A stretch of DNA of 26,939 bases from a virus. Under the pieces are notes generated by a model. It was given only the letters and a program-made list of their open reading frames with translations, ran no database searches and was not told the DNA's origin. Shown here one piece after another: positions 3,980 to 26,128 of this stretch (positions are counted from its first letter, which is position 1; each line of letters opens with the position of its first letter). The position numbers and the translations under genes were made by a program. The stretch spans positions 1 to 26,939 of IMG/VR virus record IMGVR_UViG_3300006805_000129; one strand, 5' to 3'.

Positions 3980-4056
3980 TTTCTTCCTCCTAGTGAGGGG
4001 CGCCCCGTGGCAGGCCGGGTATGAGGTGTGTTCGGAATTGCTGGATTAGTGACATG

Positions 4057-4211: not shown

Positions 4212-4240
4212 TAAGGACACGCCAACCGGGGAGGCACCAA

Positions 4241-4543
4241 ATGAACGCAAGCACCGCAGTCGAGGCCATCAAGAGCAACGCAGCCACCGCCCGGCGCTTC
4301 GCCGCTGATTCTGCCGCCGCCGAGGGCCGGATGGCTGCCCTGGCACATGTGGCCGCCTTGTCAGAGGGCAACATGTCCGACGAGGAGTTCTCGGAGCTCT
4401 ACGCCAACGCTAAGCGGATTGGCGGCAAGTTTGGCCCCGCGTATCTCGCCACCGTCGCGGCTCTCGTAGACGTCATCAAGCCCAAGAAGTCGCGCGCGGA
4501 GCTTCTCGCCGCCGTGCGCGCCAGCGGTGGACTGGTGGACTGA
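4241..4543 (+). CDS. Unknown small helical protein, first gene of reverse operon
   Basis: Predicted 100-aa protein rich in Ala and charged residues and apparently all helical, with no transmembrane segment or recognised domain. It runs opposite to the surrounding late genes. I chose the ATG at 4241 because GGGGAGG lies seven bases upstream; an in-frame GTG at 4202 falls inside the operator and has no ribosome binding site. The C-terminal part (DVIKPKKSRAELLAAVRASGG) is basic and amphipathic. It is followed one base later by a 60-aa HTH protein, so the two probably form a unit. It could be a partner or antagonist of that protein, or an effector under its control; I do not recognise a family. 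Confidence 0.65.
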   Translation: MNASTAVEAIKSNAATARRFAADSAAAEGRMAALAHVAALSEGNMSDEEFSELYANAKRIGGKFGPAYLATVAALVDVIKPKKSRAELLAAVRASGGLVD

Positions 4544-4544
4544 C

Positions 4545-4727
4545 ATGGATCAGCTTTTGGCAGCAGGGCAAGCCTGGCGCAAAGCCAAAGAAGCAGAGCG
4601 GCGAGCAGCGGAAGACTGCTACGCGGCACTCGTCGCCGCTGTAGCGGCCGGCGTGTCCGAGGTCGAGGCCGCTAAGCTGGCCGGCGTCGACCGCATGACA
4701 GTGAGGCGAGCCCTAGGCAAGCTCTAG
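4545..4727 (+). CDS. Small helix-turn-helix DNA-binding protein
   Basis: Predicted 60-aa protein. The first 35 residues form a charged Ala-rich helix that could dimerise. Residues 38-58 (SEVEAAKLAGVDRMTVRRA) are a clear helix-turn-helix: a short helix, the turn AGVDR, then a recognition helix with Thr, Val and two Arg, as in the HTH of resolvases and small phage regulators. The ATG lies just after the TGA of the preceding gene. Because the operon promoter carries two matching palindromes, an autoregulatory role is a reasonable inference, but a lone small HTH of this kind could bind elsewhere. Its TAG stop abuts the methyltransferase stop on the other strand. Confidence 0.7.
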   Translation: MDQLLAAGQAWRKAKEAERRAAEDCYAALVAAVAAGVSEVEAAKLAGVDRMTVRRALGKL

Positions 4728-4734
4728 CTAGAGC
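4721..4734. repeat. 14-bp palindrome holding both stop codons
   Basis: GCTCTAGCTAGAGC is a perfect palindrome. It contains the plus-strand TAG (4725-4727) of the HTH gene and the minus-strand TAG (4730-4728) of the methyltransferase. The two genes meet end to end with no base between them. There is no T-tract, so it is not a standard terminator. Confidence 0.7.
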
Positions 4735-5501
4735 AGGGCGGCCTGAAGCGGGTTGGCTCGTTGGACGCCGGTCTCGACGTTGGCGATCCTGCCCTCGGCT
4801 ACCTCGGCATAGTGCGCCGACATCTCGACGCCGATGAAGTGACGGCCCTCAGACAGTGCGGCAACTCCCGTGGAGCCTGACCCCATAAAGGGGTCCAAGA
4901 TGACGCCGCCAGGTGGGCAAATCTTGACGAGCTCCCGCATGACGTCTAGCGGCTTCTGCGTTATGTGCTCCCGCTCGCGCGGTGGACTGGCTTGGAAGAA
5001 GCCCGGCAGGCAGGGGTCTTCGTAGTCGATGCCCATGCTGCCGGCGCTACCCCATACGACGTACTCGCACTGGGCAGCGAACCGGCCCGCCTGTGGGCGG
5101 TATTGAGTCTTAGCCCACGGCACAACTCCACGCCATACAAAGCCGCCCGCTTGGAAAGCATCGGTGGTCGCAGGGAGCTGGCGCCAGTCAGTAAAGACAC
5201 ACCCCACGCCGCCCGGCTTGAGAACCCGCAGGGCCTCTCCGATCCACAGGGCAGACCAGTAGGCGTAGGCCCGCTGGTCACGATTGTCGCCTGTGAAGTC
5301 CTCAAGGGCTTGACTGCCGCTGTCGCTGTTGACGTACTTGGCCTTGGTATTGCCCATGCGGTCGCCGCGGACCATGCCGCCCGAGCTGTACGGCGGGTCA
5401 GTGATCAGGCAGTCGACAGATTGGCTGGGCAGCTCTTTGAGGACAGCGAGGCTGTCGCCACGGTAAAGGGTGGCGACGTTGGTCATGTAGTAAGGCTCCA
5501 C
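4728..5501 (-). CDS. DNA methyltransferase, beta class (probable N6-adenine)
   Basis: S-adenosylmethionine-dependent DNA methyltransferase of 257 aa. Catalytic motif IV DPPY is at residues 35-38, near the N-terminus. The AdoMet-binding motif FMGSGSTG is at 205-212, near the C-terminus, preceded by TQKP (181-184). This permuted order defines the beta class, and DPPY favours adenine N6 methylation although cytosine N4 is possible. The region between (about 100-180) should hold the target-recognition part. No restriction endonuclease is adjacent, so it is an orphan, probably protecting phage DNA from host restriction or marking it. I chose GTG at 5501 because GGGGAG lies upstream; ATG at 5486 is a fair alternative. 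A terminator sits just upstream, so expression must come from readthrough or a promoter I cannot identify. Confidence 0.92.
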   Translation of the reverse strand: MEPYYMTNVATLYRGDSLAVLKELPSQSVDCLITDPPYSSGGMVRGDRMGNTKAKYVNSDSGSQALEDFTGDNRDQRAYAYWSALWIGEALRVLKPGGVGCVFTDWRQLPATTDAFQAGGFVWRGVVPWAKTQYRPQAGRFAAQCEYVVWGSAGSMGIDYEDPCLPGFFQASPPREREHITQKPLDVMRELVKICPPGGVILDPFMGSGSTGVAALSEGRHFIGVEMSAHYAEVAEGRIANVETGVQRANPLQAALL

Positions 5502-5515
5502 ATTGTCTCCCCAAT

Positions 5516-5543
5516 AGAAAAGCCCCCGACAACGTCGAGGGCT
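5516..5543 (-). terminator. Intrinsic terminator after the tail operon
   Basis: On the minus strand AGCCCTCGAC (5543-5534) and GTCGGGGGCT (5530-5521) pair with one mismatch around a 3-nt loop and are followed by TTTTCT. It lies about 55 nt past the last tail gene and just before the methyltransferase ribosome binding site. It is the best leftward terminator in the window. Confidence 0.85.
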
Positions 5544-5596
5544 CGCAGGTGTTCCTATTCAGTTATGGGGTGTGTCCGTAATGGTTCCGTTAGTGC

Positions 5597-5833
5597 CTAC
5601 TGCCCGACGAGGGCAGCGGCCTCCTCCTCGGTCAGCCCGAGGGCTGCCAGTTTCGCAATAGCGGACGCCTTGGCTGCGGCCTTGGCTTCCTCGGCTGCGA
5701 TGCGCTCGGCCTCGGCTGCTGCCGCAGCGGCGGCGTCGGCCTCCCGCTGCGCGATCTCCTCCGCAGTCAGGGGTCGCTCTACGACCTCGCCTGTCTCGCA
5801 GTTGACCTCGATAGCGATGGGTGTTTCAGACAT
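5597..5833 (-). CDS. Small Ala/Glu-rich protein at end of tail operon
   Basis: Predicted 78-aa protein. The N-terminus reads MSETPIAIEVNCETGEVVER, followed by LTAEEIAQREAD, a long Ala/Glu helix (about 30-62) that is probably a coiled coil, and a C-terminal LTEEEAAALVG helix. The pattern 'ETGEV-xxRPLTxEEIAQ' followed by a long helix is common in small proteins placed after phage tail fibres, some annotated as XkdW-like or fibre-associated. The start has TAGGAG upstream. Position suggests a virion tip component or fibre assembly helper. Low sequence complexity prevents a firm assignment. Confidence 0.7.
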   Translation of the reverse strand: MSETPIAIEVNCETGEVVERPLTAEEIAQREADAAAAAAAEAERIAAEEAKAAAKASAIAKLAALGLTEEEAAALVGQ

Positions 5834-5846
5834 GGTTCTCCTAAGG

Positions 5847-6362
5847 TCAGGCGCGGGTGAGGCCGTAGAGGAAAAAGGCCGAGTGCTGGACATAGTTTCC
5901 AGAAGTCGGCGTAAATCGGATTGAGGTGATTGCGGAAGTGTCAGACCATAACCCTGCGTAACAGCCGATGGAGTTATTCGTGGCGTCATTCGTTTCAACC
6001 ACATGCGTCGACGAGTATGACTTATTGGTGCTGCCCGCGTAGTTGGGAATGTAGACCTCAACGCTGTTGAATGAATTGGCGGTAGCCGACGATCCAGTCG
6101 TTATGTCGGAATACATGGCACTAGCGAAAGTGCTGGACGCTGCTGATGAGCCGATACCTTCAAGTCTTCGTGAGGATCGGTTGGAGGTGCTTCCATTGAA
6201 CGAAACCGCACTAGCCTGATTGTTGTACCCGGCAGCATCTACTCGGCAGGAGTACGTCACCAATAGATCGGTGTAGGTGCCGGGGATTGAGGTGAACTCT
6301 GCGTAGGCTGCGCCACCGCTACCCACCGTAACTTTGCCGATCAACTTCATGGTCTTTGCCAT
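5847..6362 (-). CDS. Tail-tip / receptor-binding paralogue C
   Basis: Predicted 171-aa protein, one of three neighbouring paralogues. Shared marks are a VTVGSGGA strand near residue 11, the motif SIPGTYTDLLV at 25-35, and near the C-terminus LWSDTSAITSIRF (138-150) followed by FFLYGL just before the end. The middle is Ser, Thr, Asn and Tyr rich and differs between copies. Such beta-rich, C-terminally conserved proteins after fibre genes are likely exposed virion tip proteins that touch the host surface or its glycans; this is inferred from position and composition. The ATG follows a GGGGGG-rich ribosome binding site and sits in CTAATG, a start context seen repeatedly in this operon. Confidence 0.72.
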   Translation of the reverse strand: MAKTMKLIGKVTVGSGGAAYAEFTSIPGTYTDLLVTYSCRVDAAGYNNQASAVSFNGSTSNRSSRRLEGIGSSAASSTFASAMYSDITTGSSATANSFNSVEVYIPNYAGSTNKSYSSTHVVETNDATNNSIGCYAGLWSDTSAITSIRFTPTSGNYVQHSAFFLYGLTRA

Positions 6363-7538: not shown

Positions 7539-9542
7539 TCACCGGTACTGGGCCCAAGAGGCCAAAACGGTGTAGGTGGGCGTCGCAGCCGTCTTGATGA
7601 TCGTCAGCGTGAAGGCGTCAATGCCTGCCGTCTGGTTAGCCTGCGACGCCGTAGGCGGTGCCGAATTGTTCAGCCATTTCGGCGTCACCGCAGTACCGTC
7701 CACCTGAATCGTCGTCGGGTAGTAAGCCGTCGTGCCGTTGTTGATGACCCAGCCCACCGTGTAGGCATCCTCCACAGCCAACAGGCTCGACAAGGTAGTG
7801 GACGAATCCCCGCGGAAGTTGACCGTGTGATTCGCTGTCGCGTTGGTCGTGTAATGCCAGACAGCGGCAGTCTTGACGTCCACGTTCACGGTGCCCGTAG
7901 CCGCAGAGGCGACCACGTTGAACCGCTCAATCGGAGCCAGTTGGATGATCGTGGACAGCAGATTCGTCCACGACGCATTAGACCCGTCCGTCGTCAGCAA
8001 CTTGTTAGCGTTGCCCGTCTGAGTCGGCAGGCTGACAGGGGCGGCAGCCCACTTCACCCCCAAGGTCTGAGCAGAGTCAGCGGTCAGGATGTGCCCGTCT
8101 GTCCCCACGCCCAGGCGTGCCGGGGCTGAGGTGTCCCTGACGATCAGGTCGCCCTTGGTCGTGACGAGCGCGTTACCGATCGCCCCAATATCGGCCGCCG
8201 TGGGCAGGACGTGGACGTGGTCACTCCTGGCGACGCTGGCCGTCGCCGTGCCCGGTGAGGCAGCCGTCCCCAGGGCAGCGGGGTTCGTGGAGGCCAGGAC
8301 GACGTTCAGCGTCCTCGACGCCGACAGGTCGCCACCCCCGGCGAGGCCGGTGCCGGCCGTGATCGCCGTGGCCGTGCCGACGGCACCGATGTCGGCCGGT
8401 GTTGGCCGGGCGTGGACGTGGTCGCCCCGAGACAATTCCACCGATGTCCCGGCTGCGCCCGCGGCGCCGAGCGCCTGTGGCGTCGCGTCGGAGAAGTCGG
8501 CGACCAGGGTGCCACCGGACGCGGTGCCGAGCCCCGCCCCGTACATGAGGCTGAAGGTGTTGGACGTGTAGTCGATGGGGTCGTTAGCCGACAGTCCCGC
8601 TAGGTCGCCTTGGGGTCCGGTGACGAGGACGAAGTCAAAGGTGCCGGCGGCTGAGTTGCCGACGTTGGTGACCGCTGCGGTGCCGCCGTAAGGGACGGAG
8701 GTGACCGAGCCAACCGCGATGGTGGCGGCTGATCCTGTCGCACCCTGCGGCCCCGTGGCTCCCTGCTGACCTGTCACGAGGATGAAGTCAAGGACGGCGG
8801 CCGACGAGCTGCCCGAGTTGGTGACGGTGCCGGGTCCGGGGTAGGCGACGGCGCCGACTGTCCCGACGGTCACGCTTGCGGCTGACCCTGCCGCGCCCTG
8901 CGGCCCAGTCGCGCCAGTGGCTCCCTGCTGTCCGGTGACGAGCGTGAAGTTGAGGACGGCGGCGGAGCTGCTGCCAGAGTTCGTGACCGTGCCCGGACCT
9001 GGGTAGGCCGTGGCGCCGATGGTGCCGACGGTGACGGTGGCGGCTGACCCGGCTGGCCCTGTGGGGATGCCAAGGTTGAGGGTCTGCGAGGGGGCGAGGC
9101 CGGTGATGGTGGCGGTCGCGGCCGAACCTGCCGCGAGGGTCGTGACGGTGCCGATGCTCAACGAAGAAGCGAGCGAATAATACTCGGGCCCGGCTGCGGC
9201 GACAGGCGCTAGGTCGGCGAGGTAGACGGTGCCACCCGAGGCGACAGTGCCAGGGATCGAAATGTTGTACGACTGCGACACCCCGTCAATGACTTCGGTG
9301 ACCGTGTAGATGAACGGGTTGGGGGACAGGTCCGCGTCGTCTGTGATGGGCAGGGTGACGGAGAAGTTGCCCGCCGTCCCGAGGGTCTTGGAGACCGCCG
9401 AGTTGGGGATGGCGATATTGGCGCCCGAGTTGAGCAGCCACGCCGAGGGCGTAAAGGTGATGGTGCCCGTCGAGGGGTTGCCTTCAGGAGTGTTGAAGGT
9501 GCCGAGGACGACCACGGTCGTCGTGTTGGCAGGCAGCGGCAT
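7539..9542 (-). CDS. Tail fibre with collagen-like repeats
   Basis: Predicted 667-aa fibre. Residues 1-115 form a beta-rich head (TFNTPEGNPSTGTITFTP and following). From about 125 come repeats of 'SIGTVTTL..GSAATATITG' type joined by collagen-like Gly-x-Y runs (GPAGSAA, GATGATGPQGAAG, GATGPQGATG). Two copies of a segment containing DHVH and PT-x-ADIGA follow (SRGDHVHARPTPADIGAVG near 371-389 and ARSDHVHVLPTAADIGAIG near 438-456). The end (530-667) is a beta-rich C-terminal domain. Collagen-like triplets suggest a trimeric shaft; DHVH segments recur in phage fibres. The ATG overlaps the stop of the upstream fibre (TAATG) with GGAGG seven bases away. It probably carries or supports the three small tip proteins downstream. 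Confidence 0.85.
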   Translation of the reverse strand: MPLPANTTTVVVLGTFNTPEGNPSTGTITFTPSAWLLNSGANIAIPNSAVSKTLGTAGNFSVTLPITDDADLSPNPFIYTVTEVIDGVSQSYNISIPGTVASGGTVYLADLAPVAAAGPEYYSLASSLSIGTVTTLAAGSAATATITGLAPSQTLNLGIPTGPAGSAATVTVGTIGATAYPGPGTVTNSGSSSAAVLNFTLVTGQQGATGATGPQGAAGSAASVTVGTVGAVAYPGPGTVTNSGSSSAAVLDFILVTGQQGATGPQGATGSAATIAVGSVTSVPYGGTAAVTNVGNSAAGTFDFVLVTGPQGDLAGLSANDPIDYTSNTFSLMYGAGLGTASGGTLVADFSDATPQALGAAGAAGTSVELSRGDHVHARPTPADIGAVGTATAITAGTGLAGGGDLSASRTLNVVLASTNPAALGTAASPGTATASVARSDHVHVLPTAADIGAIGNALVTTKGDLIVRDTSAPARLGVGTDGHILTADSAQTLGVKWAAAPVSLPTQTGNANKLLTTDGSNASWTNLLSTIIQLAPIERFNVVASAATGTVNVDVKTAAVWHYTTNATANHTVNFRGDSSTTLSSLLAVEDAYTVGWVINNGTTAYYPTTIQVDGTAVTPKWLNNSAPPTASQANQTAGIDAFTLTIIKTAATPTYTVLASWAQYR
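8607..9050 (-). repeat. Three tandem repeats of about 51-54 codons in the fibre gene
   Basis: Residues 165-312 of the fibre contain three units, each starting GSAA-[TS]-[VI]-[TA]-VG and ending LVTG plus a collagen-like run. The first two are nearly identical over PGPGTVTNSGSSSAAVL; the third is diverged. The DNA repeats likewise, so recombination could change shaft length. Confidence 0.8.
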
Positions 9543-10960
9543 TAGTTACCCTCCAAGGCTTCAATGCGGGCGGTGAGGTTGTCGACCTTGTCGGCGAGCG
9601 ACTGGACGGCGGTGAGCAGCATGGGGACGAACACCGAGTAGCGAACAGAGAGAGTCCCGTCGTCATCTTCGGCGACCATGCTGGGGAAGATTGACTGGAT
9701 TTGCTGCGCAGTGACGCCGAGAAGTTTCTGGTCTGAACCTTGCCAGTGATAGGTGACGACCTCGACCTGGCGCAAGTCGTCTAGGTAGTTGCGGGCTGGC
9801 GCGATGTTCTCTTTGAGCCGGGCGTCGGAATATCCGGCGTAGGAGTTGGTGCGGGACAGGACGTCGCCGTCTGCCTCAACTTGGAACTTGGCTTGATTTG
9901 TGGTGGTGACGTTGGAGTTGAGGCGAAGCATGACGTCGCCCGCCGTGGCCGTTGTGCGGTAGCCCTGAAAGACAATGTTGTCCGCTTCAGTAATGGCTCG
10001 GTCTGCCGTCAGGTTTCCGGCGGTGTCTATGTTCCCAGTCGCGTCAATGGCACCGCCGACGGTCAGTTTGCCACCGACGTAGGCGGTGCCCGAGTTGCTG
10101 ATGCTGGTGTTTGTGATGATCCCGCCCGTAACAAATGACAGGTCGCCTTGGATTTGTGTGTCGGTACCGATAACGAGGCGAGATGACGGCGACAGCACTA
10201 GGTCGCCTAGGTTGCCGTAGAGGCTGTGAAGGGCGTTGTTGCCGCTGTAGATGTTCACATAGCCAACGGGACCGGAGTCGTTCATGGTAACGCGGGCTCC
10301 GCTTGTGCCGGTGCGAAACTCTGCACCGCTGATCGTGCCTCCGCTGACGAGTCCGCCTGAAATCGTGCCCCCGGACAGGTAGGCGGCGTTGATTGACCAG
10401 CCGGTGATGGTGCCCGCGACGATGCTGTTGGCGGTGATGGCGTTGGCTGCGATGTCGGGGGCGTTGATCTGACCGGGCTGCGCGCTGGCAGCCGAGCCTG
10501 CTGCGGTGACGTTGCCTGCGGGGTCGGCGCCGCGTAGGCGGAAGTAATAGGTGGTGCCGCGTGACAGGCCGACAACCGACAGCCCGCCAGGCCGCGCCAG
10601 GCGGCCCTTGAGGGTGGCGGTGCCCACCGTGAACGTCGGCCCCGACGTGTCCATGTGGACCTCGACGTATGACGTGTCCGAGGGCCACAGGTCACCGGCT
10701 GAATTGAGGCCGTTCCAGACCACGTTGATGCCCTGCACGGAACTAATCAGGGTGGGGGTTGACGGGGCGATGAACGCGCCGGGTGGGGGCAGGACGGGGG
10801 CGGGTTCGGTGCCGCCGCCAGTGCCAGGAGTGGGGGTGGGGGCGACGCCGCTGGTCCCGTCGCCGCTGGACTTCACCCCGGCGCCGCCGATGATTGACGT
10901 GAGCCTGGCAAGCTTGGATTCCCACGGCTGCGGAGGTCGGCGCATTTCTCCGCTAGGCAT
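9542..10960 (-). CDS. Tail fibre/spike with C-terminal S74 intramolecular chaperone
   Basis: Predicted 472-aa virion protein. After a Pro/Gly linker (38-62), residues 65-160 look like a fibronectin type III domain (PTLISSVQGINVVWNG, later TYYFRLRGADPAGN). A repetitive beta-helical stalk (165-340) follows, with GGTISGG-type repeats. The end, about 375-472, is an S74 peptidase/intramolecular chaperone domain: SDARLKENI (Ser378, Lys383), LGVTAQQ, FPSMV, and a closing coiled coil with LADKVDNLTARIEALE. Such domains trimerise the fibre and then cut themselves off N-terminal to the Ser using the Ser/Lys pair. Release of the last ~95 residues is therefore predicted. The ATG overlaps the upstream stop by eight bases with GGAGG nine bases away. 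Confidence 0.9.
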   Translation of the reverse strand: MPSGEMRRPPQPWESKLARLTSIIGGAGVKSSGDGTSGVAPTPTPGTGGGTEPAPVLPPPGAFIAPSTPTLISSVQGINVVWNGLNSAGDLWPSDTSYVEVHMDTSGPTFTVGTATLKGRLARPGGLSVVGLSRGTTYYFRLRGADPAGNVTAAGSAASAQPGQINAPDIAANAITANSIVAGTITGWSINAAYLSGGTISGGLVSGGTISGAEFRTGTSGARVTMNDSGPVGYVNIYSGNNALHSLYGNLGDLVLSPSSRLVIGTDTQIQGDLSFVTGGIITNTSISNSGTAYVGGKLTVGGAIDATGNIDTAGNLTADRAITEADNIVFQGYRTTATAGDVMLRLNSNVTTTNQAKFQVEADGDVLSRTNSYAGYSDARLKENIAPARNYLDDLRQVEVVTYHWQGSDQKLLGVTAQQIQSIFPSMVAEDDDGTLSVRYSVFVPMLLTAVQSLADKVDNLTARIEALEGN

Positions 10961-16188: not shown

Positions 16189-16617
16189 TTAGAAGGTGCC
16201 GGTGGTGGACTTCGTGATTTCGCCGACGGCCGGCCACGTCACGTCGAATGTGGTGAGGTCGCCGACCTGGCCGCTCACGGGCGTCTGCTGCGAGCACAGC
16301 ACCGGGATCGTGTAGAGCGGCGCGGTTGAGGTCGCCGTGCCCTGGCTGGTGCTGGTGCCAGCGAGGATGACCACGCTGCTCGTGCCACCGAAGATGCCAG
16401 CGAGCGTGGCGTTGACGCTTGAGGCGTCGTAATCTTGGTGCAGCGAGATCGTGACCGAGGCGTCCTTGAGCCCCGCAATACGGCTGCGAGCCGCCTGACC
16501 GAACGCGGTGGTCTCAATCTCGTCGACGGTCTCGGTGACCTCAACGGACGCGATGTTGGTCGTCAGCTCCGTGCCGCCGACCTTCACGCGAAGGTTCTTA
16601 CCGATGAACTTGGCCAC
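16189..16617 (-). CDS. Major tail protein (tube)
   Basis: Predicted 142-aa tube protein that should stack in hexameric rings around the tape measure. It is beta-rich: FIGKNLRVKVGGTELTTNI, then VEVTETVDEIETTAFGQAA, RIAGLKDASVTISLHQDYD and late TTFDVTWPAVGE are the usual siphovirus tube pattern. The TETVDEIETTAFG stretch with the later 'asvti' strand closely matches actinophage tube proteins. Size is at the short end for the family. GTG start with AGGAGG six bases upstream. Immediately followed by the chaperone pair. If the sugar cassette modifies virion proteins, this Ser/Thr-rich protein is a plausible target. Confidence 0.87.
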   Translation of the reverse strand: MAKFIGKNLRVKVGGTELTTNIASVEVTETVDEIETTAFGQAARSRIAGLKDASVTISLHQDYDASSVNATLAGIFGGTSSVVILAGTSTSQGTATSTAPLYTIPVLCSQQTPVSGQVGDLTTFDVTWPAVGEITKSTTGTF

Positions 16618-16636: not shown

Positions 16637-17047
16637 TTAGCCGGCGGCTATTACGGTCACCGCGAATGTCGCGGTGAGGTACGTGACGTCACCGATGGCG
16701 AGCGGTGCCTGGTCTCGCATTTCGGTGACGCGGGTGTCTAGGGCGGAACCGCCTAAATAGCGGTCACCCTCAATGGCGGCTTTGATGCTGGCGCTACCAC
16801 TGGAAGCGCAGTAGGCGTCAAGGTTGTTTTGGCTGGCCCGGTCGGCGACTCGGCCGACGATGAGCATGACGTCGAAGGTGTATTCGTCGGAGCCACGCCC
16901 GAAGGCGGTGTCGTATGTGATGCGGCCCGGCATGACGACGGCGATGGGCGGCGACGGGTTGTCGGGGATCGTGGCTGAGGCGCGCAGGCCGGAGATTGTG
17001 GCGAGGCGGGTGGCGAGCCCCGCGCGCAGCGCGGTCAGGGAAGCCAC
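16637..17047 (-). CDS. Tail terminator / head-tail joining protein
   Basis: Predicted 136-aa protein. The first segment LTALRAGLATRLATISGLRA is a helix. The strands with PIAVVMPGRITYDTAFGRG and DEYTFDVMLIVGRVADRAS are typical of the tail terminator/neck family that closes the tube at its upper end. DPD-like and RYLGGSALDTRV segments near residue 100 also fit. The GTG start overlaps the stop of the upstream connector (TAGTG), and the gene lies just upstream of the major tail protein, the normal place for a terminator. A second neck protein is not separately visible. Confidence 0.78.
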   Translation of the reverse strand: MASLTALRAGLATRLATISGLRASATIPDNPSPPIAVVMPGRITYDTAFGRGSDEYTFDVMLIVGRVADRASQNNLDAYCASSGSASIKAAIEGDRYLGGSALDTRVTEMRDQAPLAIGDVTYLTATFAVTVIAAG

Positions 17048-17670
17048 TACGCGACCCCGGTGACCTTGCGGTAGCCCTCGATGAGCTGGGCGACGTCCGG
17101 GTCCAACTTGGACGAGACCCGCATGATGCCCATGTCGCCGAATCCGGCGACCCCCAGTGGAGACTGCAAGCGGGCAAAGAGGCGGCTGGCTTGGATGACG
17201 GCCGCTTGGGCGACGACGGTCGGGACGCTGGGCCAGCCGTACACGGCCGTGACCTTGACGACGGCTTCGGGGCCGGTGGGGAAGACGTAGTCGCCGACGG
17301 CGCGGATGCGGGTGTAGGGCCAGGTGATGCCGCCGATGTAGTCGTTCAATGGCTCGGGCTGGGCGTCCACGTCGCTGCCCGGCGTGCCGACGGTCCACGT
17401 CGTATCAAAGACCCCGTCCTCGCTGGTGGAGGTCTGGACGACTGAGATGGAGCGGGCGTCGTCAATGTTGACGACGTAGGGGTTCTCAGTTGAGTAGTAG
17501 CGGGTGGTCGGGGCGGTGCCCGCGCTAATGAAGTTTCGGCCGCAGTAGGCGTCAATGAGGCGGGACGCCGACTCGGTCGCCATTTCGATCAGGGCGTCGT
17601 CGGTGGCGTCCGCAATCCGCAAAGCGGCCTTGACCTGATTCAAGGTCGCGTACCCGTTGGCGATGGCCAC
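17047..17670 (-). CDS. Head-tail connector (gp6-like)
   Basis: Predicted 207-aa connector. The N-terminal region, ATLNQVKAALRIADATDDAL followed by IEMATESASRLIDAYCGRNF, is the helical pattern of HK97 gp6/SPP1 gp15-type adaptor proteins that dock beneath the portal. A beta-rich insert (about 55-135) follows, then helix VPTVVAQAAVIQASRLFARL and a late MRVSSKLDPDVAQLIEGYR near the end, also standard. GTG start with GGAGG upstream. Immediately after the epimerase gene and before the tail terminator, so the sugar cassette splits it from the capsid gene. Confidence 0.85.
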   Translation of the reverse strand: MAIANGYATLNQVKAALRIADATDDALIEMATESASRLIDAYCGRNFISAGTAPTTRYYSTENPYVVNIDDARSISVVQTSTSEDGVFDTTWTVGTPGSDVDAQPEPLNDYIGGITWPYTRIRAVGDYVFPTGPEAVVKVTAVYGWPSVPTVVAQAAVIQASRLFARLQSPLGVAGFGDMGIMRVSSKLDPDVAQLIEGYRKVTGVA

Positions 17671-17672: not shown

Positions 17673-18599
17673 TCAGCCTCCGATTTCGTAGTGCTTGCGC
17701 ATCCAGTCGACGGTGAGCGGCAAGCCTTGGGCCAGCCGGGTGCGCGGGTTGTGGTGCAAGAGAGACTTGGCCTTGGAGATATCCGGCCGCTTGCTGGTGA
17801 CGTTGTGCTTGTCTAGGGGAAGCCGGGTGACCAGGGACGGGTGGGCGCCGGTGATGTCAACGAGCATGTTGGCCATGTCCTCAACGCTGACGTATTCGTC
17901 GCCGCCGATATTGACGGTCTCGCCAGCCACGAAATTGTCAGCAGCATTTCCGAGGGTGCCGATGAAGTCGCCCTGGTAGAGAAAGACTCGGTGATAGTTC
18001 TCGTACACCGTGATCGGCTTACCCGTCAGCAGGCGGTAAGCGAACAGGCAGACGACCGAGCGATAGTCGTGATATCGCTCACCGGGGCCGTAGGCGTTGA
18101 AGAACCGCAGCGTCATGGTCTTCGTGCCATAACGATCAGCGAAATTCCTGACCTGCTCCTCGTTGACCCGCTTGCTAATCGCGTAGTCGTTGGTCAGGCG
18201 CGGCTGGGCGTTGTCCAGCAGATACCGCTCGTCAATCGCCTCAGCATCAGCCTCGCCGTACACCTCCGAGGAGGAGGCGAAAACGTGCCGGAAACCGCGC
18301 TCACGCTGGAGCTCAAGCACGTTGCGGGTGCCGATGGCGTTGGTCTTCCAAACGGCTTCGTAAAATTCTTCCCCGTTGATTCTTCCGAACTCAGCGGCTA
18401 GGTGATAGACGAGGTCAAAGTCGCCGATGCGGTCGAAGGCGGCCCGCAGCTGCCGGAAGTCGGCGACGTCGGCGCGGATGGTCTGCCGCTGCCCGGTGTG
18501 CTGAAGTTCAATGCCCCAGACTTCGTGGCCACGTTCGCGCAGCTCAGCGACCAGGGGGGCGCCCAGGGTGCCGGCCGATCCGGTCACGACGATCTTCAT
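17673..18599 (-). CDS. NAD-dependent epimerase/dehydratase (extended SDR)
   Basis: Predicted 308-aa nucleotide-sugar enzyme of the extended short-chain dehydrogenase family, cytoplasmic. The Rossmann signature TGSAGTLG gives Gly7, Gly10 and Gly13. LVYHLAAE is at 63-70, the active-site region FASSSEVYG at 107-115, and the catalytic pair YAISK at Tyr139/Lys143. RFFNAYGPGE (165-174) and VNIGG (229-233) are standard in sugar epimerases such as UDP-glucose/GDP-mannose epimerases or dehydratases. The exact sugar cannot be told from sequence. It is last of a three-gene cassette with two glycosyltransferases, with an ATGA overlap to the gene before it and GAGGAG upstream. Likely job: make the donor sugar for virion or host-surface glycosylation. 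Confidence 0.9.
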   Translation of the reverse strand: MKIVVTGSAGTLGAPLVAELRERGHEVWGIELQHTGQRQTIRADVADFRQLRAAFDRIGDFDLVYHLAAEFGRINGEEFYEAVWKTNAIGTRNVLELQRERGFRHVFASSSEVYGEADAEAIDERYLLDNAQPRLTNDYAISKRVNEEQVRNFADRYGTKTMTLRFFNAYGPGERYHDYRSVVCLFAYRLLTGKPITVYENYHRVFLYQGDFIGTLGNAADNFVAGETVNIGGDEYVSVEDMANMLVDITGAHPSLVTRLPLDKHNVTSKRPDISKAKSLLHHNPRTRLAQGLPLTVDWMRKHYEIGG

Positions 18600-19360
18600 G
18601 CTGTCTCCTCAACGATCTGCCAGAACTTCTTGGGTTGCTCTGACAAGACCTGCGCGGGGTCGCCGGGCTCTAGCCGCCCGACGAGGGAGTTGGTGACGAT
18701 CTCGCAACCAGCGAGGGTGGCTTCGATGACGACCAGGGGGCAGGCGTCGCGTTCTTTGGGCAAGTGAACGAAATACTGGGCTCGGGCCATGTGGTCGAGG
18801 ACGACGTCGTGGTCGGCGTTCTCAAGCTCGACCAGGGCAACGCCGTGACGGGCGGCCCATATGCGGGCTTGGACTTTGCCTTTGGCTGGGTGGCGCCTAC
18901 CAGCGAACAGGGCGAAGGGCTCCTTGGTCGCGGGCTGCACGCACTCGGGCGGCACGGGGGAGTGGACGAAGTCGTCGGCTCGGCCGGTCCATTCGGCTTC
19001 CCAAGCCATGTGCAAACGAGACATGGTCAGGAAGCGCGATGCCTGCCGGAACAGGTTGGCCTTGGCTGGGGTGCGGTGCTGGGCGTGCTGGACCCACACG
19101 ATGGGCCTGCACGCCGCTAGGAAATTCATAGCGGCTTCGGAAAGTTTGTCGGTGCCTCCGACCACTACCCGGTCAAATGAGCCGTCTACGGCGCTCTGGA
19201 AATTGTCGGGTTCGATGTAGTGAACCTCAACGTCAGGCGGTGCGGCCTGGATCATGTAGTCGGTATTCCGCTCCGCGCCGCCGGCATATTTGCCGGGCAG
19301 CAGGGCGCCGTGCCTTTCCTCCACCCGTGGAATGTGGTGAGTGACCCAGGCGACCCTCAT
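18596..19360 (-). CDS. Glycosyltransferase, GT4-like
   Basis: Predicted 254-aa protein. The N-terminal half starts with strand RVAWVTHHIP and a Gly-rich loop GKYAGGAERN. The C-terminal half has FALFAGRRHPAKG (149-161) and then ERDACPLVVIEATLAGCEIV (203-222). There Asp205-x7-Glu213 matches the E-x7-E donor-binding motif of GT4 enzymes with Asp in place of the first Glu. It is shorter than the usual 350-400 aa, so it may be a compact or reduced version. The ATG lies in an ATGA overlap with the preceding glycosyltransferase and has no ribosome binding site of its own, implying coupled translation. Acceptor and donor are unknown. Confidence 0.82.
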   Translation of the reverse strand: MRVAWVTHHIPRVEERHGALLPGKYAGGAERNTDYMIQAAPPDVEVHYIEPDNFQSAVDGSFDRVVVGGTDKLSEAAMNFLAACRPIVWVQHAQHRTPAKANLFRQASRFLTMSRLHMAWEAEWTGRADDFVHSPVPPECVQPATKEPFALFAGRRHPAKGKVQARIWAARHGVALVELENADHDVVLDHMARAQYFVHLPKERDACPLVVIEATLAGCEIVTNSLVGRLEPGDPAQVLSEQPKKFWQIVEETA

Positions 19361-20622
19361 GGCGCGAGCAGCACGTCCAGGGCGGGCCGCCAGTATTCGT
19401 CGAATACGCGGTCGGCGTCGTACTGCGCGGCAAAGTCAATGGCCTTTTGCGATCGGCCTCGGCCTCGCGCGTAGGCAGCCTCAAGGGAGTCCACGATCGA
19501 CGGGACCAGGGGGTTGAAGAACCAGGCGCCCTGCGGTGAGTCCCAGGCAGGCTGCACGTCCACGAGCCAGCCGTCGCCGCACAGTTCGGCTTGGGCGGTG
19601 GCGTTGGACACGACGACCGGGGTGCCCGTTGCCAAGCTTTCGATAGCGGGTATGCCGAAGCCCTCGCCGCGACTGGGCTGCAACAGGACGTCGCTGGCCG
19701 TGTAAATCGCCGCGAGCGCCTCCTTGGGCACGCCCAAGCGGTACGGGTAGGCGTCCACGAACTTGACCCGCTCCTGTGGGACACCCGTCGCCGTCAGTAG
19801 TGCGCGCAAGTCAAGACCCGTCATGGCAGGGCTGGGCTCGGTGTGCAGGTAGAGCCAGACGTCGTCGTGGTTCTGCATGACCATCGCGGCGGCCAGGAAG
19901 GACTCGGCGAAGGACTTGCGGTCGATGCCGCCCTTGTTGGCGCTGACCATGGTGATGAGGTAGGCATCCTCGGGGATGCCCATCCACGTCCGCGCCGGGA
20001 CCGAGCCCTCGGTGCCGACGATCTCAGCCGTCGGCTTGAACACCTTTGTGTCAATCGCGTGCGGAACGTAAAGCGTTTCGATGTCCAGGCGCTCAATGGC
20101 GTCGCGCCCGAACTTGCTCATGGCGATGGGCGTGACGTTGGGCTTGACCAGCCACTCGGCCACCGCAGGCGGCACCGGGAAATGGTCAATCGGCACCCAG
20201 GAGGCGATGCGGTCAATGACGTCCCAGCCGGCGCCCCGGAACACCCAGCAGTCGAACAGGGTAATCATGAGCGGCTGGTGCCCGAGTTCCTGCCCGAAGT
20301 GCATGAGGTGAGCAGGCATGACGTCGTTTGAGTAGGCGTCAAAGCCGCGGGGATAAACCCGCACGCCTTCCCACTCCATGATGGAGGCTTCGAGGCCGTA
20401 GTTGGACGCTACGGCGACGGGGTGCCCGGCTTGCTTGAGCCGCCGGACGACTTGCGCGGTTTGCTCGCCGTAGCCTGTCGAGGCCCACGGGGCGTTGGAC
20501 CCCCAGACGATTCCTCGCGCAGCAGTCCCAGGCGAAGCAGCTGCTCCGCTTCTGGCGGCGGCACGTCGAGCGGGGTTCCCAGAACGTGAATGAGCCTTGG
20601 CAGTTTTCGTGGCATTGGCCAC
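19357..20622 (-). CDS. Glycosyltransferase family 4
   Basis: Predicted 421-aa GT-B fold enzyme. After a basic, Ala-rich N-terminal tail (1-36) the acceptor domain begins at GIVWGSNAPWASTGYG. The donor domain includes ITMVSANKGGIDRK and ends with QPSRGEGFGIPAIESLATGT, where Glu320-x7-Glu328 is the retaining GT4 E-x7-E motif. I chose the GTG at 20622, six bases after AAGGAG; the frame stays open further upstream into the capsid gene but those starts lack a ribosome binding site. It is the first cistron of the sugar cassette, behind a long hairpin region that follows the capsid gene. The basic tail may contact the virion or nucleic acid; this is a guess. Confidence 0.9.
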   Translation of the reverse strand: MANATKTAKAHSRSGNPARRAAARSGAAASPGTAARGIVWGSNAPWASTGYGEQTAQVVRRLKQAGHPVAVASNYGLEASIMEWEGVRVYPRGFDAYSNDVMPAHLMHFGQELGHQPLMITLFDCWVFRGAGWDVIDRIASWVPIDHFPVPPAVAEWLVKPNVTPIAMSKFGRDAIERLDIETLYVPHAIDTKVFKPTAEIVGTEGSVPARTWMGIPEDAYLITMVSANKGGIDRKSFAESFLAAAMVMQNHDDVWLYLHTEPSPAMTGLDLRALLTATGVPQERVKFVDAYPYRLGVPKEALAAIYTASDVLLQPSRGEGFGIPAIESLATGTPVVVSNATAQAELCGDGWLVDVQPAWDSPQGAWFFNPLVPSIVDSLEAAYARGRGRSQKAIDFAAQYDADRVFDEYWRPALDVLLAP

Positions 20623-20632
20623 CCTTATCTCC

Positions 20633-20686
20633 TTTGCGCAGGGTGTGGACGGCCCCGGCCCCCTGCGCAAAGCCGGGACCGTCCAC
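20633..20686 (-). promoter_or_regulatory. Mutually exclusive hairpins between capsid and glycosyltransferase genes
   Basis: On minus-strand RNA, bases 20686-20672 pair with 20659-20645 in a 15-bp stem with one G-U. The loop and the segment just after it are also perfect 11-bp complements: TTTGCGCAGGG (20671-20661) with CCCTGCGCAAA (20643-20633). The second helix cannot coexist fully with the first because the linkers are 0-1 nt. Its 3' arm ends in the AAA of AAAGGAG, the glycosyltransferase ribosome binding site. No T-tract follows. Confidence 0.7.
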
Positions 20687-20701: not shown

Positions 20702-21907
20702 TTACGACGCGCCACCCACGAAGTGCTTGATGTGGCTGGTCTGCGGCAGGTTGCCATCGACGCGAATCTGGAAACGGAGAGTGACCTGACCCGTGTTGAA
20801 GGCGAAGTCATCGCTGCGAGCCACGTCGATCCCGCCGACCTGGCGGACGTAGTACGACGGGAAGTGCCCGGCGATGACGGACTTGTTGGCGGTGCCGGTT
20901 GACGCCATCGCGGGGTTCTCAATGAGCGGAACGCCCAGGACGGTATCAGGTGTCTGCGCCTGAATAGTCGGCAAGAACACATAGTCGCCGCCCGACGTCT
21001 TCAGCTTGCGCATCGCACCAATGCTCGCGCCGTTAGCCATCACGCCGAAACCGGGCAGCCGACGAGCGGCCCCGTCCAGCGAGTAGACCAACGAAATGAG
21101 GTCATCGGCAGTGAAGGCGCCAGCGACACCCGTGCCGCCCGTGCCGCCAGCCGCCGAAGCGGTAACGATGCCGTTCGGCTGAACGGTGCCCGTGCCCGTG
21201 GTGAGCACGGTGTTCACGGCGTAGCCGATCGCGTTGCCAGCCTGCTGACCGAGGAACCCGATGACGTCGATATTGCTGTCGGCAAGGAACTCCTGCGAGA
21301 CCTGCACGATGAAGGCGTACTTGTACGCCTTGAGCGTGGTCTTGGCGAACGCCGGGTCCGACTCGTCAATCGTGGCAGCCTCGGCCTCAAGGCCAGCGGT
21401 CGACCAAGACGACAGAGAAGGCAGCACGAGGTCTTCGCCGCTGGCCGTGTTGAGCACGGTCACGACGGACGGGTCCAGCATGGGGCCGACGAGGCGTGCC
21501 TGGTCGATGACCGCGTTTGAGAACGAGGTCGGGACCGGGGCGTTGCTCGTGGTCTTGGCCAGGTCGCGCTTCTCGAACTGGAACGAGTAGGCGCGGCGCT
21601 CGCCGGTCAGCAGCTCGCGCAGAATGTCGGCGTCGGACTTCTCCGCAGCCATGCGCGACTCAACCGGGCGGGCAACATTCTCAAGGCCGGACATGGCCTC
21701 GGCGATCTCGCGCTCACGCTTCTCAGCGTCAACGAGAGTGGTGATGAGGTCGCGCTTGGCGTCGAGCTCCGCGAACGTGCGGTCGACGAACTCGCGCTCC
21801 TCAGCGGACAGGTCACGGCCCTCGGCGGCGACCTCGTCCATCTTGGCCTTCGCTGCATGGTAGGCCGACTGGCGGTCCTCCACGAGCTTCTGAAGGTACT
21901 GAGACAA
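20702..21907 (-). CDS. Major capsid protein, HK97 fold
   Basis: Predicted 401-aa capsid subunit. Residues 1-85 are a charged coiled-coil delta domain that guides prohead assembly and should be removed by the protease. The mature HK97-fold part likely begins near residue 90-120. Typical marks are QVSQEFLADSNIDVIGFLGQ, a Gly-rich Ala/Thr loop near 245-255, LISLVYSLDGAARRL, GVPLIENPAM, and the P-domain end VTLRFQIRVDGN. The TTG start has GGAAAGGGG upstream. The gene is flanked on both sides by RNA hairpins, unlike its tightly overlapping neighbours. The glycosylation cassette that follows makes this surface protein a candidate acceptor. Confidence 0.92.
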   Translation of the reverse strand: MSQYLQKLVEDRQSAYHAAKAKMDEVAAEGRDLSAEEREFVDRTFAELDAKRDLITTLVDAEKREREIAEAMSGLENVARPVESRMAAEKSDADILRELLTGERRAYSFQFEKRDLAKTTSNAPVPTSFSNAVIDQARLVGPMLDPSVVTVLNTASGEDLVLPSLSSWSTAGLEAEAATIDESDPAFAKTTLKAYKYAFIVQVSQEFLADSNIDVIGFLGQQAGNAIGYAVNTVLTTGTGTVQPNGIVTASAAGGTGGTGVAGAFTADDLISLVYSLDGAARRLPGFGVMANGASIGAMRKLKTSGGDYVFLPTIQAQTPDTVLGVPLIENPAMASTGTANKSVIAGHFPSYYVRQVGGIDVARSDDFAFNTGQVTLRFQIRVDGNLPQTSHIKHFVGGAS

Positions 21908-22014: not shown

Positions 22015-23079
22015 TTAGAGCGACTTGAAGTGCAAGTCGAGTTTCGTGCGCAGGATGTCCAGCTTGGCCTTGACGTCGTCGTCGACGGCGGGCTCGGGCT
22101 CCGGGGTCGGCGCCAGCGACGCGACCACCGTGGACAGCAGGTCGGCCTGGTCAACGGTCAAGGTCTCGCCACGCTCAAGGGCGTCGAGCGCACCGTTGAG
22201 GGCGTCGGCGTCGGCGCCCGTCTTATCGGCGAGGGCGTCAATCGACCGCACGCTGGCCGACGTCTTGGTGTACGCCGGGAACGCAACCACGCTCACCTCA
22301 TGCAAACGGACCTGGCGCAGTTCGCGCTGAGAACCGTCCTCAGACCACGAGTCGCCACCGGGCGGCACCGTGAAACCGAAGGACATGGAGTCGACGACCT
22401 GAGCGCGCAACAGTTCAGCGGCGTCCCGGCCCTGCGAGGTATTGGGAAGGTCAGCGTCCACCAGCAGGCCCTTGGAGTCTTCCGACAGCCGAAGCGTCTT
22501 CGACCGGGTAGAGGCCAGCGGCATCGACGTGTCGTGCGACCACAAGAGGAAGACGTTATTGCGGGACTTCAGCGACCGGGTGAAGGCCCCCGGTGCGATG
22601 ACCTCCCTGAAAGGCAAGGGCTCGCTGGGCGAGTTGAAGACGGCCGCGTAGCCGGCGAAGCTCATACCATCGCCGGAGTCGCGGAACTCCCACTCGTTGA
22701 CTGTGACGTGACGGGTCTCAACGTCAGTGCTGCTCATGCGTCCTTCTTCCTCGCGGATGCGCTCGGCCTCGCGCTCAAGCCAACGACGGGCCGGTCCAGG
22801 GTTCGTGGGGTCAATGCCCCACAAGTAATGAGCCACGGCGCCAGCGCCGGGAAAGTCCCCATTGTCGGGGTCGGAGTTCTGCGGAGCGTCAAGGTCAACC
22901 TCGTGGCGAGCACCCCAAGCGTTCGCCCGAATGACTTTGTCGTTGCTCATAGTGCCGTCGGCGATCTGCCGTGCCTCGCGGATCGTGCCGTCAGTGAGGC
23001 CGTCGCCGCCGTAGCCGTCAGCCCTGTACGCCAAGCCCTTACGGGCGGCCTCGCTCATGTAGCCAGGAACGTCGGGCAT
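22015..23079 (-). CDS. Prohead protease with extra N-terminal domain
   Basis: Predicted 354-aa protein. Residues 116-280 are a HK97-type (U35) prohead protease: VNEWEFR near 127, FAGYAAVFNSPSE (141-153), FREVIAPGAF (157-166), catalytic LLWSHD with His182, SMSFGF with Ser231/Ser233, and LHEVSVVAFPAY (259-270). The C-terminus is acidic. Residues 1-113 form a second domain with KGLAYRADGYGGDGL, REARQIADG, DLDAPQNSDPDN and AVAHYLWGID. A similar small domain is found near head genes in many phages, sometimes fused and sometimes free. A possible internal start is ATG 22737 (Met115), with GAGGAAGAAGG just upstream; it would make a 240-aa protease alone. ATG 23079 overlaps the portal stop (TAATG). 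Confidence 0.88.
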   Translation of the reverse strand: MPDVPGYMSEAARKGLAYRADGYGGDGLTDGTIREARQIADGTMSNDKVIRANAWGARHEVDLDAPQNSDPDNGDFPGAGAVAHYLWGIDPTNPGPARRWLEREAERIREEEGRMSSTDVETRHVTVNEWEFRDSGDGMSFAGYAAVFNSPSEPLPFREVIAPGAFTRSLKSRNNVFLLWSHDTSMPLASTRSKTLRLSEDSKGLLVDADLPNTSQGRDAAELLRAQVVDSMSFGFTVPPGGDSWSEDGSQRELRQVRLHEVSVVAFPAYTKTSASVRSIDALADKTGADADALNGALDALERGETLTVDQADLLSTVVASLAPTPEPEPAVDDDVKAKLDILRTKLDLHFKSL

Positions 23080-24413
23080 TAGACCTGGGCGTTCTCGGCC
23101 GGCTGCAACTGGTTCGACGCCAGGCCGGTGTGCGGCATGGACGGCAGCCCCATGGCGGCCAGCACTGCCTCGGGGGAGTAGCCGGACTGGACGAGTTTTG
23201 CGGCCATTTCGACGCGCTCGCGCTGCTCCACGATTCCAGCAGCGGTGAGGTCAATGTTGGCGAGCGGCACGCGCACCTGCTCGCCGCCCTCAACGGGACG
23301 AAGGTCGAGGATGCGGCGAATGTCGTTGACGCTCATGTAGCCAGCCTGCAAGGCCGTGGAGAAAATCTGAGCCTGAGTGGCCGAGTCTCCGCGAAGTAGG
23401 CCGTCCATGTTCATGCGGAGGAAGACATCACCAGGCAGCAGGCGCGAGTGCGCCTCCTCAATCTTGGCGACTAGGGGCAGCAGCGAATACCGCACGAACT
23501 GGATGGCGTTGTGTTCGACGCTGGCGTAGGACATGGCGCCGGGTGTGTTCAAGCCAATCATGGAAGGCGGAACGCGGAAGATACGCGCGATCTCCTCCAC
23601 CGCGAACTGGCGAGACTCAAGCATTTGCGCCTGCTCGCCATCCGAGCCAGTCTTCATGAACTTGGCGCCGCCTGCCAGCACGCCTGGACGGTGCGCCTTC
23701 TTGAGCCCCTTGTGCCCAGCCTCAAAGGCGTCGACCAAGTCTTTCGCCTGCTCCTGGGTGAGATTGCCAGGGAACTCAATGATCCCCGACGTATTGGCGC
23801 CGTTGGAGAAGTACCGGGCAGCGAACTCGTCCAGGGCCTTCGCCAGACCGAGGGTCTGCTTGACCTCGTCCACGCGGGACACGCCCTTCAACTGCCCAGG
23901 GCGACGCATTTCGGTGATGTAGAGAACGTCCGACTGGGGCAGAACCGCCGAGCCGCCGTCAATGACGAACTCGCGCTGACGGCTGCCAGGGTTACGGCGA
24001 ACCTCTACCCGCGTCGGGTCCAGCGGCACCAGGGCCACGACCTCGCCGTTACCGCCCCGAAGAATCTGCACCACCGCGCCATGCGACAGGAGCATGGACG
24101 TCACGACCTGCTGCATGTAGTCAATGCGCGACGAGCCAGGCCCATCGGGCTCGGTGACCCACGCCGGCCGAGGACGATACGGCTGACGGTCACCATTGAC
24201 GCGGACGAACGTATCGGTCGGCAGGGCCGAAATCGTGTCGCCCAGCAGGCGAACGCAAGCGTACACCGCGCCGAGCTGCAACGAGTTCGCCTGATTGACG
24301 AAGGCGCCCGACCACGTCGTCATGGTCGAAACGTCAAGACCCGAACCCCAGACCTGCTGGTAGGAAAGGTCACGCTCCTCAACCTGCGGCGCAGCGAACA
24401 AGCGACCAAGCAT
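23079..24413 (-). CDS. Portal protein, HK97 type
   Basis: Predicted 444-aa portal that forms the dodecameric DNA gateway and docks the terminase and head-tail connector. Characteristic segments are QLGAVYACVRLLGDTISALP near 46-65, LVPLDPTRVEV near 128, KGVSRVDEVKQTLGLAKALD near 176-195, the crown-type SGIIEFPGNLTQEQA near 209, and FRVPPSMIGL near 280 followed by NAIQFVRYSLLPL. The length is normal for the family. The ATG directly follows the stop of a 46-aa membrane-protein gene (TAAATG) with GAGAGGGG as ribosome binding site. Confidence 0.93.
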   Translation of the reverse strand: MLGRLFAAPQVEERDLSYQQVWGSGLDVSTMTTWSGAFVNQANSLQLGAVYACVRLLGDTISALPTDTFVRVNGDRQPYRPRPAWVTEPDGPGSSRIDYMQQVVTSMLLSHGAVVQILRGGNGEVVALVPLDPTRVEVRRNPGSRQREFVIDGGSAVLPQSDVLYITEMRRPGQLKGVSRVDEVKQTLGLAKALDEFAARYFSNGANTSGIIEFPGNLTQEQAKDLVDAFEAGHKGLKKAHRPGVLAGGAKFMKTGSDGEQAQMLESRQFAVEEIARIFRVPPSMIGLNTPGAMSYASVEHNAIQFVRYSLLPLVAKIEEAHSRLLPGDVFLRMNMDGLLRGDSATQAQIFSTALQAGYMSVNDIRRILDLRPVEGGEQVRVPLANIDLTAAGIVEQRERVEMAAKLVQSGYSPEAVLAAMGLPSMPHTGLASNQLQPAENAQV

Positions 24414-24562: not shown

Positions 24563-26083
24563 CTAGACTGAGAAGAAAGCGGGCACGGCCGCCTCGGGCT
24601 CGGCCTCGCGGGCGTGCGTCGCCCGGTCAAAGGCGATGATCGCGGCTACCGCCGCGTCAATCTTGCGCGGCGAACCCCGATGCTCCTTGACCACCCGAGG
24701 GCCCCGAGCGTCAACCTTGATGACGCAGTTGTCCAAATGTCGGGCGAGAACGGGATGATGGTCGTGCGAGACCGCGCCGCTAGTAACCGCGTCATAAAAC
24801 TTGGCCGTCGAGGGAACCATTCGAGCCGGGCTGGACGACGGATACTCCACGACCGGAACACCGGCCTCGGCCAAAGCCTCCATGGACCGCGCCCAACGGT
24901 AGGGGTCACAAGCAACCTCGACCACGTTGAACTCGCCGCACGTCCGCAGGATCGTCGCCTCAACCTCACCGATATCCACCCGCCAGTCATCGCGGTCGGT
25001 GGGTTGCTTCTCCCAAATATCGACCAGCCAAATGCGCGGGTGTTCCTCAACCGTGACGCCGACAATGGCGGTGGTGTCGTTGGAGAACGAGCCGTCAAAG
25101 CCCAGCACGACCGGGACGTCGCGGCCCACCGAATCCAGCTGCGGCAGCGCATCCCATTCGCCGTGAGGCAACCACGCCTGCTGGGCCGAGACCCACTGAT
25201 TCAGGCGCTTGGTGCGGAACTCGTTTTCGGGAGTCCGCTTGACGGCGGACTCAAAGTCCTCGGGGTCCTGCAAGTCAGCGAAGCCAGGGTTGGCCTGCTG
25301 CCAAACCTTCGGCTCCTTGTGATCGGAGGACTCCGGTGCGCCCCACCAAGCCATGAAAAACGATGGGTCGTCAACCTCGCCGGCAGCCACCCGCTTGCCG
25401 TACTGCCAGAGCGAGTAGCAAGTCGAGTCCTGGCCCGTGGAGTCAGCCTTCACGCCAGCCGTCGATAGGGCGACGATCATGGAGTCCAAGCGCGCGGCCT
25501 GGGCCAGCGACATGACATCCCACAGTTCGCGGTTTGGGGCGGCGTGCAACTCGTCGTAAAAGACGGCCGTGGGGGACAGGCCCTCCTTAGTGAACGCCTC
25601 GGAGGAAAGCACCCGATACACCGAGCCAGTTGAGGGAATTTCAATGGCGTCCCGGTAGAGCTTGGCCAACTCCATGAGTTCGGGCGACTGCTCGACCATG
25701 GCCTTAGCGGACCCGAAAACGATGCGGGCCTGCTCCCGGTCAGCGGCACAGGAATAAACCTCGCCGCCACGCGGACCCAGATAGAGCGAATACAGGGCCA
25801 TGCCCGAACCCAGCGCGGACTTCCCCGACTTACGCGGCAGCATCACCAGCGACGTTCGATGCCTCAGTCGGCCATCGGGCCGTCGGGCGTAAACGGCTTC
25901 TAGGAGTTTCTTCTGCCAGGGCCGCAGCAGCAGCGGCTCACCAGCCTTGCCCCCGATGGAGTCCTTGACCTGGGGGCACAGTTGCTCAATGAACTCAACG
26001 ACGTCTTTCCCTGACCCGCGTTTGATATCAGCGGGTGGGACGGGTGTCAGTAATGCAGGGGGCCAGCCCTTAATTTTGCCCAT
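24563..26083 (-). CDS. terL: Terminase large subunit
   Basis: Predicted 506-aa DNA-packaging motor. Numbering from the ATG at 26083, the ATPase has Walker A PRKSGKS (83-89) and Walker B VFYDELH (174-180, with Asp177 and Glu178); the coupling-motif LSTAG near 206 is also present. The C-terminal nuclease has metal-binding Asp330 in VLGFDGS, Asp393 in VEVACDP, and Asp476 in KIDAAVAAI. I chose the ATG at 26083 because GGAG lies nine bases upstream; a TTG at 26098 would give 511 aa but has no ribosome binding site. It follows a plus-strand gene rather than the small terminase directly. Confidence 0.94.
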   Translation of the reverse strand: MGKIKGWPPALLTPVPPADIKRGSGKDVVEFIEQLCPQVKDSIGGKAGEPLLLRPWQKKLLEAVYARRPDGRLRHRTSLVMLPRKSGKSALGSGMALYSLYLGPRGGEVYSCAADREQARIVFGSAKAMVEQSPELMELAKLYRDAIEIPSTGSVYRVLSSEAFTKEGLSPTAVFYDELHAAPNRELWDVMSLAQAARLDSMIVALSTAGVKADSTGQDSTCYSLWQYGKRVAAGEVDDPSFFMAWWGAPESSDHKEPKVWQQANPGFADLQDPEDFESAVKRTPENEFRTKRLNQWVSAQQAWLPHGEWDALPQLDSVGRDVPVVLGFDGSFSNDTTAIVGVTVEEHPRIWLVDIWEKQPTDRDDWRVDIGEVEATILRTCGEFNVVEVACDPYRWARSMEALAEAGVPVVEYPSSSPARMVPSTAKFYDAVTSGAVSHDHHPVLARHLDNCVIKVDARGPRVVKEHRGSPRKIDAAVAAIIAFDRATHAREAEPEAAVPAFFSV

Positions 26084-26128
26084 GCGCAGGGGCTCCAAGG
26101 TAAAGTCGGCAGCGAATGAGGGGGGACA

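Follow-up and report, generated by a model that had tools for sequence, protein, structure and literature searches.

Putative virion glycosylation genes behind the capsid gene of a mostly uncultured actinophage lineage: a fixed glycosyltransferase and an exchangeable sugar module

Organization of the locus

The stretch of DNA analysed here (the window) comes from IMG/VR, as a virus record of 26,939 bases; its head and tail genes lie on the minus strand. From upstream to downstream these comprise TerL (24563–26098), a portal (23079–24413), an S78 protease (22015–23079) and the HK97-fold major capsid protein (MCP; 20702–21907; PF05065, 1.8e-49), which is the proposed acceptor. On the same strand follow a 421 aa core glycosyltransferase of the GT4 family with a GTG start (GT1; 19357–20622; PF00534/PF13692, phrog_2170), a compact second glycosyltransferase of 254 aa with a GT-B fold in its AlphaFold model (GTb; 18596–19360), and a 308 aa extended SDR of the NDP-sugar dehydratase/decarboxylase/epimerase class (SDR-A; 17673–18599; PF01370). 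A gp6-like head–tail connector (17047–17670; PF05135, phrog_442) forms the downstream border of the slot, and the major tail protein is encoded at 16189–16617, again on the minus strand. A sequence-only reading of this DNA had placed three sugar genes, chained by ATGA, between the capsid gene and the connector, and both the coordinates and the overlaps were confirmed: ATGA overlaps join GT1 to GTb and GTb to SDR-A, and the connector starts 2 nt past the SDR-A stop. No sigma-70 promoter or intrinsic terminator pattern was found inside the region, and a nucleotide search against phage genomes gave no match. The arrangement is not a product of chance, since the same three genes occupy the same slot in dozens of viral contigs and SDR-A shows far fewer amino acid changes than the neighbouring genes.

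Elsewhere in the window, a tyrosine recombinase (PF00589) is encoded on the plus strand, opposite to the head genes, at the edge of the contig (3–785), which hints at a temperate life style. The minus strand also encodes an N4/N6 DNA methylase (4728–5501; PF01555), possibly protective against host restriction, and a tail protein (9542–10960) that carries a Peptidase_S74 (endosialidase chaperone) domain at its C-terminus.

Predicted activities of the three enzymes

GT1 matches Pfam Glycos_transf_1 (1.7e-11; 44.4 bits against a curated cut-off of 26.4) and a PHROG glycosyltransferase family (phrog_2170; 5.9e-36). It contains an E-x7-E donor motif, GEGFGIPxIE, of which E320 and E328 are invariant in 10 divergent members. 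GTb, by comparison with Pfam, PHROG and NCBIfam profiles, gave zero matches, and a protein search amongst cultured phages likewise found none. Its AlphaFold model is confident (pLDDT 89.7) and superposes full-length on the GT4 enzymes tll1591, GlgM and BshA (Z about 19–20; for the GT4-type tll1591, Z 19.8 over 235 of 254 residues). On this predicted structure, GTb is a putative GT-B/GT4-like transferase. The donor-motif position is occupied by D205-x7-E213 in the window and by E-x7-E in contig L079. A glycosyltransferase of phage HY126 (9iqz; target not stated) is also amongst the structure matches.

SDR-A matches Pfam Epimerase (PF01370; 1.2e-41, 143 bits) and carries the motifs TGSAGTLG (TGxxGxxG) and Y139–K143 (YxxxK). 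Its nearest solved relatives are PDB 8w3u/9ar1 (E about 4e-72), followed by human UXS1 (3e-29). These are likewise extended SDRs with S/T-S-E, YxxxK and a retained Arg, and relative to them SDR-A keeps S-S-E, Y139, K143 and R204, although it has clearly diverged and lies below every NCBIfam equivalog cut-off, including those for UDP-glucuronate decarboxylase and other named NDP-sugar enzymes. The nearest solved relatives and the retained Ser-Ser-Glu, Tyr, Lys and Arg residues suggest that dehydratase/decarboxylase chemistry is more likely than GalE-type 4-epimerization. The earlier suggestion that the cassette makes its own nucleotide sugar goes too far: a single SDR converts an NDP-sugar that has to come from the host. 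SDR-A differs by 0.084 at the amino acid level, against 0.17–0.24 for GT1, MCP, portal and TerL, while divergence at 4-fold sites is similar. This pattern indicates strong purifying selection on SDR-A; recent spread as the cause of the similarity is ruled out, because synonymous divergence resembles that of the neighbouring genes.

GT1 is a fixed companion of the capsid gene

Searches with the GT1 query returned 80 close viral contigs, and the GT1 profile gave the best 80 of several hundred candidates. Among the matches listed, an HK97 capsid gene lies upstream in 122 of the 126 GT1 loci that have 1.5 kb or more of upstream sequence, and in 119 of them it is no more than 400 bp away from GT1; of the 96 loci with 3 kb or more on the other side, 90 have the connector downstream, a few contigs entering these two sets twice via different searches. 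Capsid relatives were therefore also fetched independently of GT1, which avoids the bias of starting from it. Amongst the 63 MCP relatives whose sequence continues for 1 kb or more past the gene, GT1 adjoins the capsid gene on its downstream side in 62, and the remaining one has a GT1-like ORF about 0.9 kb from the capsid gene. The cassette is thus no insertion in a standard head operon, as the sequence-only reading had it: GT1 is fixed, and variation is confined to the GTb and SDR part. The adjacency of MCP and GT1 may partly reflect vertical descent, because MCP, GT1 and the connector usually travel together as a syntenic block.

WhiB is a regulator of Actinobacteria that serves to mark actinophages (PMC10202952). 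It is encoded in all 13 actinophage-type records of at least 25 kb that were searched, and is absent from the Microcystis phage discussed below. The hosts of the lineage are therefore most likely Actinomycetota, and GT1 is a fixed gene of a large, mostly uncultured actinophage lineage. One short contig (L086, 1–4621), which binning had assigned to a gammaproteobacterial MAG, carries the full cassette and is probably mis-binned phage DNA.

The slot between GT1 and the connector is exchangeable

In the GT1 loci listed, the gap between GT1 and the connector may be absent or reach about 3 kb. The commonest payload is the window's own set, GTb with SDR-A. Others are SDR-B with a GT2, a GT2 with a cytidylyltransferase (CTP_transf_like), GTb and another GT2 with a different SDR, methyltransferases, and MptE-like proteins, and the slot is empty in nine loci. 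The content is almost wholly of sugar-type or methyltransferase genes, together with some ORFs lacking a profile match. In one contig (L275, 2656–4019), two non-enzyme ORFs stand behind GTb and SDR, one glycine-rich and one of 90 aa that appears decoration-like by eye.

GTb and SDR-A are exchanged together as a single module. The exchange is directly visible in contigs L209 and L210, where GTb is 70% and the SDR 80–82% identical to that of the window, while identity is only 46–52% for MCP and 48–49% for GT1. That the SDR-B module was gained several times independently is supported by the MCP tree of the close family, in which a single clade of SDR-B carriers was rejected (p-AU 0.003), but not by the GT1 tree, in which one such clade was not rejected (p-AU 0.31).

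An overlapping frame and an RNA hairpin at the start of GT1

A 68-codon ORF, o68 (20409–20615, minus strand), overlaps the beginning of GT1 in its +1 frame, with an ATG 7 nt after the GT1 GTG. Across 52 distinct sequences, codons 25–37 have a pN/pS of 3.37 when read in the frame of GT1, against 0.24 in that of o68; past these codons the pattern reverses (GT1 frame 0.13, o68 frame 2.43). Homologues of o68 occupy the same position in phages whose GT1 is only 45–56% identical. o68 is conserved across much of the lineage, and the substitution pattern indicates that in codons 25–37 its frame, and not that of GT1, is constrained at the protein level, so that the N-terminus of GT1 is probably dual-coding. 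The openness of the o68 frame was discarded as evidence, because GC-rich synonymous shuffles open equally often, and only the substitution pattern is counted. The predicted o68 structure is poor (pLDDT 61.6). o68 resembles DUF7302 (PF23976) weakly, the best-matching members having E 0.0044 to 0.023 and none passing the cut-off, and its membership of that family was rejected.

The GT1 start is preceded by a Shine–Dalgarno sequence, AAAGGAG (20629–20635, minus strand), conserved in relatives, with a spacer of 6 nt to GT1; it possibly also serves o68, with a spacer of 13 nt. Between the MCP stop and the GT1 start lies a hairpin of 15–18 bp (20645–20686, minus strand), the loop of which is complementary to 20633–20642 beside the GT1 Shine–Dalgarno sequence. 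The hairpin is very stable (MFE z −3.9) and shows covariation, with six pairs changed on both sides and a score reached by none of 500 shuffles; an Rfam search with it gave no family. Hairpins are found behind the capsid gene in most relatives, including the Pontimonas phage phiPsal1. The complement between loop and Shine–Dalgarno sequence is strong in the close family and absent in many distant members, and a lineage-wide pseudoknot is thus unsupported. The hairpin may keep expression of the enzymes low beside the very abundant capsid protein. In a separate phage contig (L219, 871–950), an Rfam tmRNA match covers just 80 nt, an odd length for the model.

Similar arrangements in other phages

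A similar known arrangement is that of phiPsal1 (MG835450), a phage described in PMC6106888 and since lost, with no further study. It shares the order MCP, GT1 (46% identity), sugar genes and gp6-like neck, and has WhiB and a Microbacteriaceae host; its payload differs, a methyltransferase annotated on the other strand and a GT2 standing in place of GTb and SDR. Capsid genes from different families also have a relative of GT1 behind them, in Microcystis phage Mae-JY09 and in contigs L092 and L095, and in L098 such a relative follows a scaffold-type head module. In Mae-JY09 (PP395641), GT1 (39%) and an extended SDR lie a short distance past MCP, but the head module is unrelated (phrog_267 MCP), the host is cyanobacterial and GTb is absent. 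In contig L332, which is 69 kb long and has a capsid of the DUF6260 type, an SDR 54% identical to SDR-A lies between the capsid and head–tail genes, within a six-gene cassette (2110–6323) of a sialyltransferase-like protein, a glycosyltransferase, a methyltransferase-like protein, the SDR-A relative, a GT2 and a weakly sulfotransferase-like protein. That unrelated phages have used the same place repeatedly points to a role connected with the particle more than to simple descent.

Glycosyltransferases are also encoded by F1 mycobacteriophages such as Che8 and Rita, which likewise have actinobacterial hosts and in which glycans are reported on MCP (Freeman et al., 2023, as cited in PMC11256854). 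In those phages, according to the same source, the glycans are proven, whereas those of the window lineage are predicted. As described in PMC11256854, the transferases of Maravista, a relative of these F1 phages, lie near the 3′ end of the genome, unlike those of the window lineage, which has a transferase fixed behind MCP and a swappable module that includes donor chemistry.

Proposed function

The cassette is most readily understood as a cytoplasmic system for glycosylation of virion proteins, in which the fixed GT1 would add a first sugar, with MCP the likeliest acceptor, and the exchangeable GTb and SDR-A a second; we place the probability of this reading at about 0.62. In the scheme that we infer, which extends to the acceptor, the order of addition, the identity of the sugars and the benefit (an altered particle surface), soluble transferases co-expressed with the head genes would act in the cytoplasm before or during assembly. 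GT1 would make the protein–sugar link on a virion protein, most likely MCP; SDR-A would make an NDP-donor from a host nucleotide sugar; and GTb would attach a second sugar using that donor. In related phages, GTb and SDR-A would be replaced in this role by SDR-B and GT2, by GT2 and a cytidylyltransferase, by methyltransferases, or by nothing. A fixed GT1 and an exchangeable module imply a glycan coat with a constant base and a variable cap. The sequence-only reading had proposed a glycosylation unit in the head operon, and this is strengthened by the placement and by the comparison with phage genomes, in which homologous cassettes sit beside structural genes, the opposite of a consistent location in host surface-polysaccharide loci.

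Phage glycosyltransferases often modify the host surface, and the enzymes could instead alter a precursor of the host cell-wall polysaccharide, thereby preventing superinfection or the re-adsorption of progeny phages to debris. Such a role has been proposed for the Planktophila phages E7 and F5 (PMC10202952), the genome of Pontimonas salivibrio is rich in cell-wall glycosyltransferases (PMC6106888), and lipid-linked precursors are in principle within reach of cytoplasmic enzymes. However, the slots hold no flippase or clearly membrane-anchored transferase: a check of the slot protein families for membrane segments found no clear one, hydropathy over 19 residues peaks at 1.59 in the three enzymes of the window, and the flippase and membrane-bound transferase of Gtr-type serotype conversion were not found amongst the cassette proteins. 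The placement is, moreover, fixed inside the head operon, and full-length GT1 relatives in bacterial assemblies are mostly on phage-like contigs, the remaining matches covering the generic C-terminal GT4 part only. Superinfection exclusion, which the sequence-only reading had offered as a second option, is less likely because the enzymes are without membrane segments and are placed in a late head operon, and we consider host-surface modification as a whole unlikely.

Somewhat less probable again is an acceptor in the tail, either the tube or a fibre protein, in place of the capsid; another late protein would fit as well. The major tail protein, encoded about 1 kb downstream, is rich in Ser and Thr (27% S+T), the connector and tail genes come after the slot, and in one contig (L093) a tail-terminator-like gene is immediately upstream of GT1; against this, the neighbour of GT1 in almost every background is MCP, not the tail protein. 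A role in glycosylating phage DNA to protect it from host nucleases, on the model of T4-like phages and their modified cytosines, is very improbable: 9iqz is amongst the GTb structure matches and DNA protection has been suggested for glycosyltransferases of freshwater actinophages (PMC10202952), but the cassette is placed with head genes, the window encodes an ordinary N4/N6 DNA methylase, and PF00303 (the thymidylate synthase/dCMP-hydroxymethylase family) was found in none of 41 related records, 12 of them longer than 25 kb and many of them fragments, the control for the same search matching in 9 of 14 genomes.

Returning to glycosylation of the virion, the slot could, more tentatively, be regarded as a phage 'glycotype' locus, in which a fixed capsid glycosyltransferase is combined with swappable second-sugar modules, so that a widespread actinophage lineage would change the coat of its particles much as bacteria do with their O-antigens; unrelated phages would have set such modules in the same place. 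To our knowledge, virion glycosylation in phages is known from just a few cultured isolates. In the large environmental lineage described here it would probably belong to the core functions, the variable cap module being under strong selection. The role of capsid glycans in adsorption, protection or evasion would be testable through near-identical phages that differ solely in the module, and the rule of looking behind the capsid gene should reveal such systems elsewhere.
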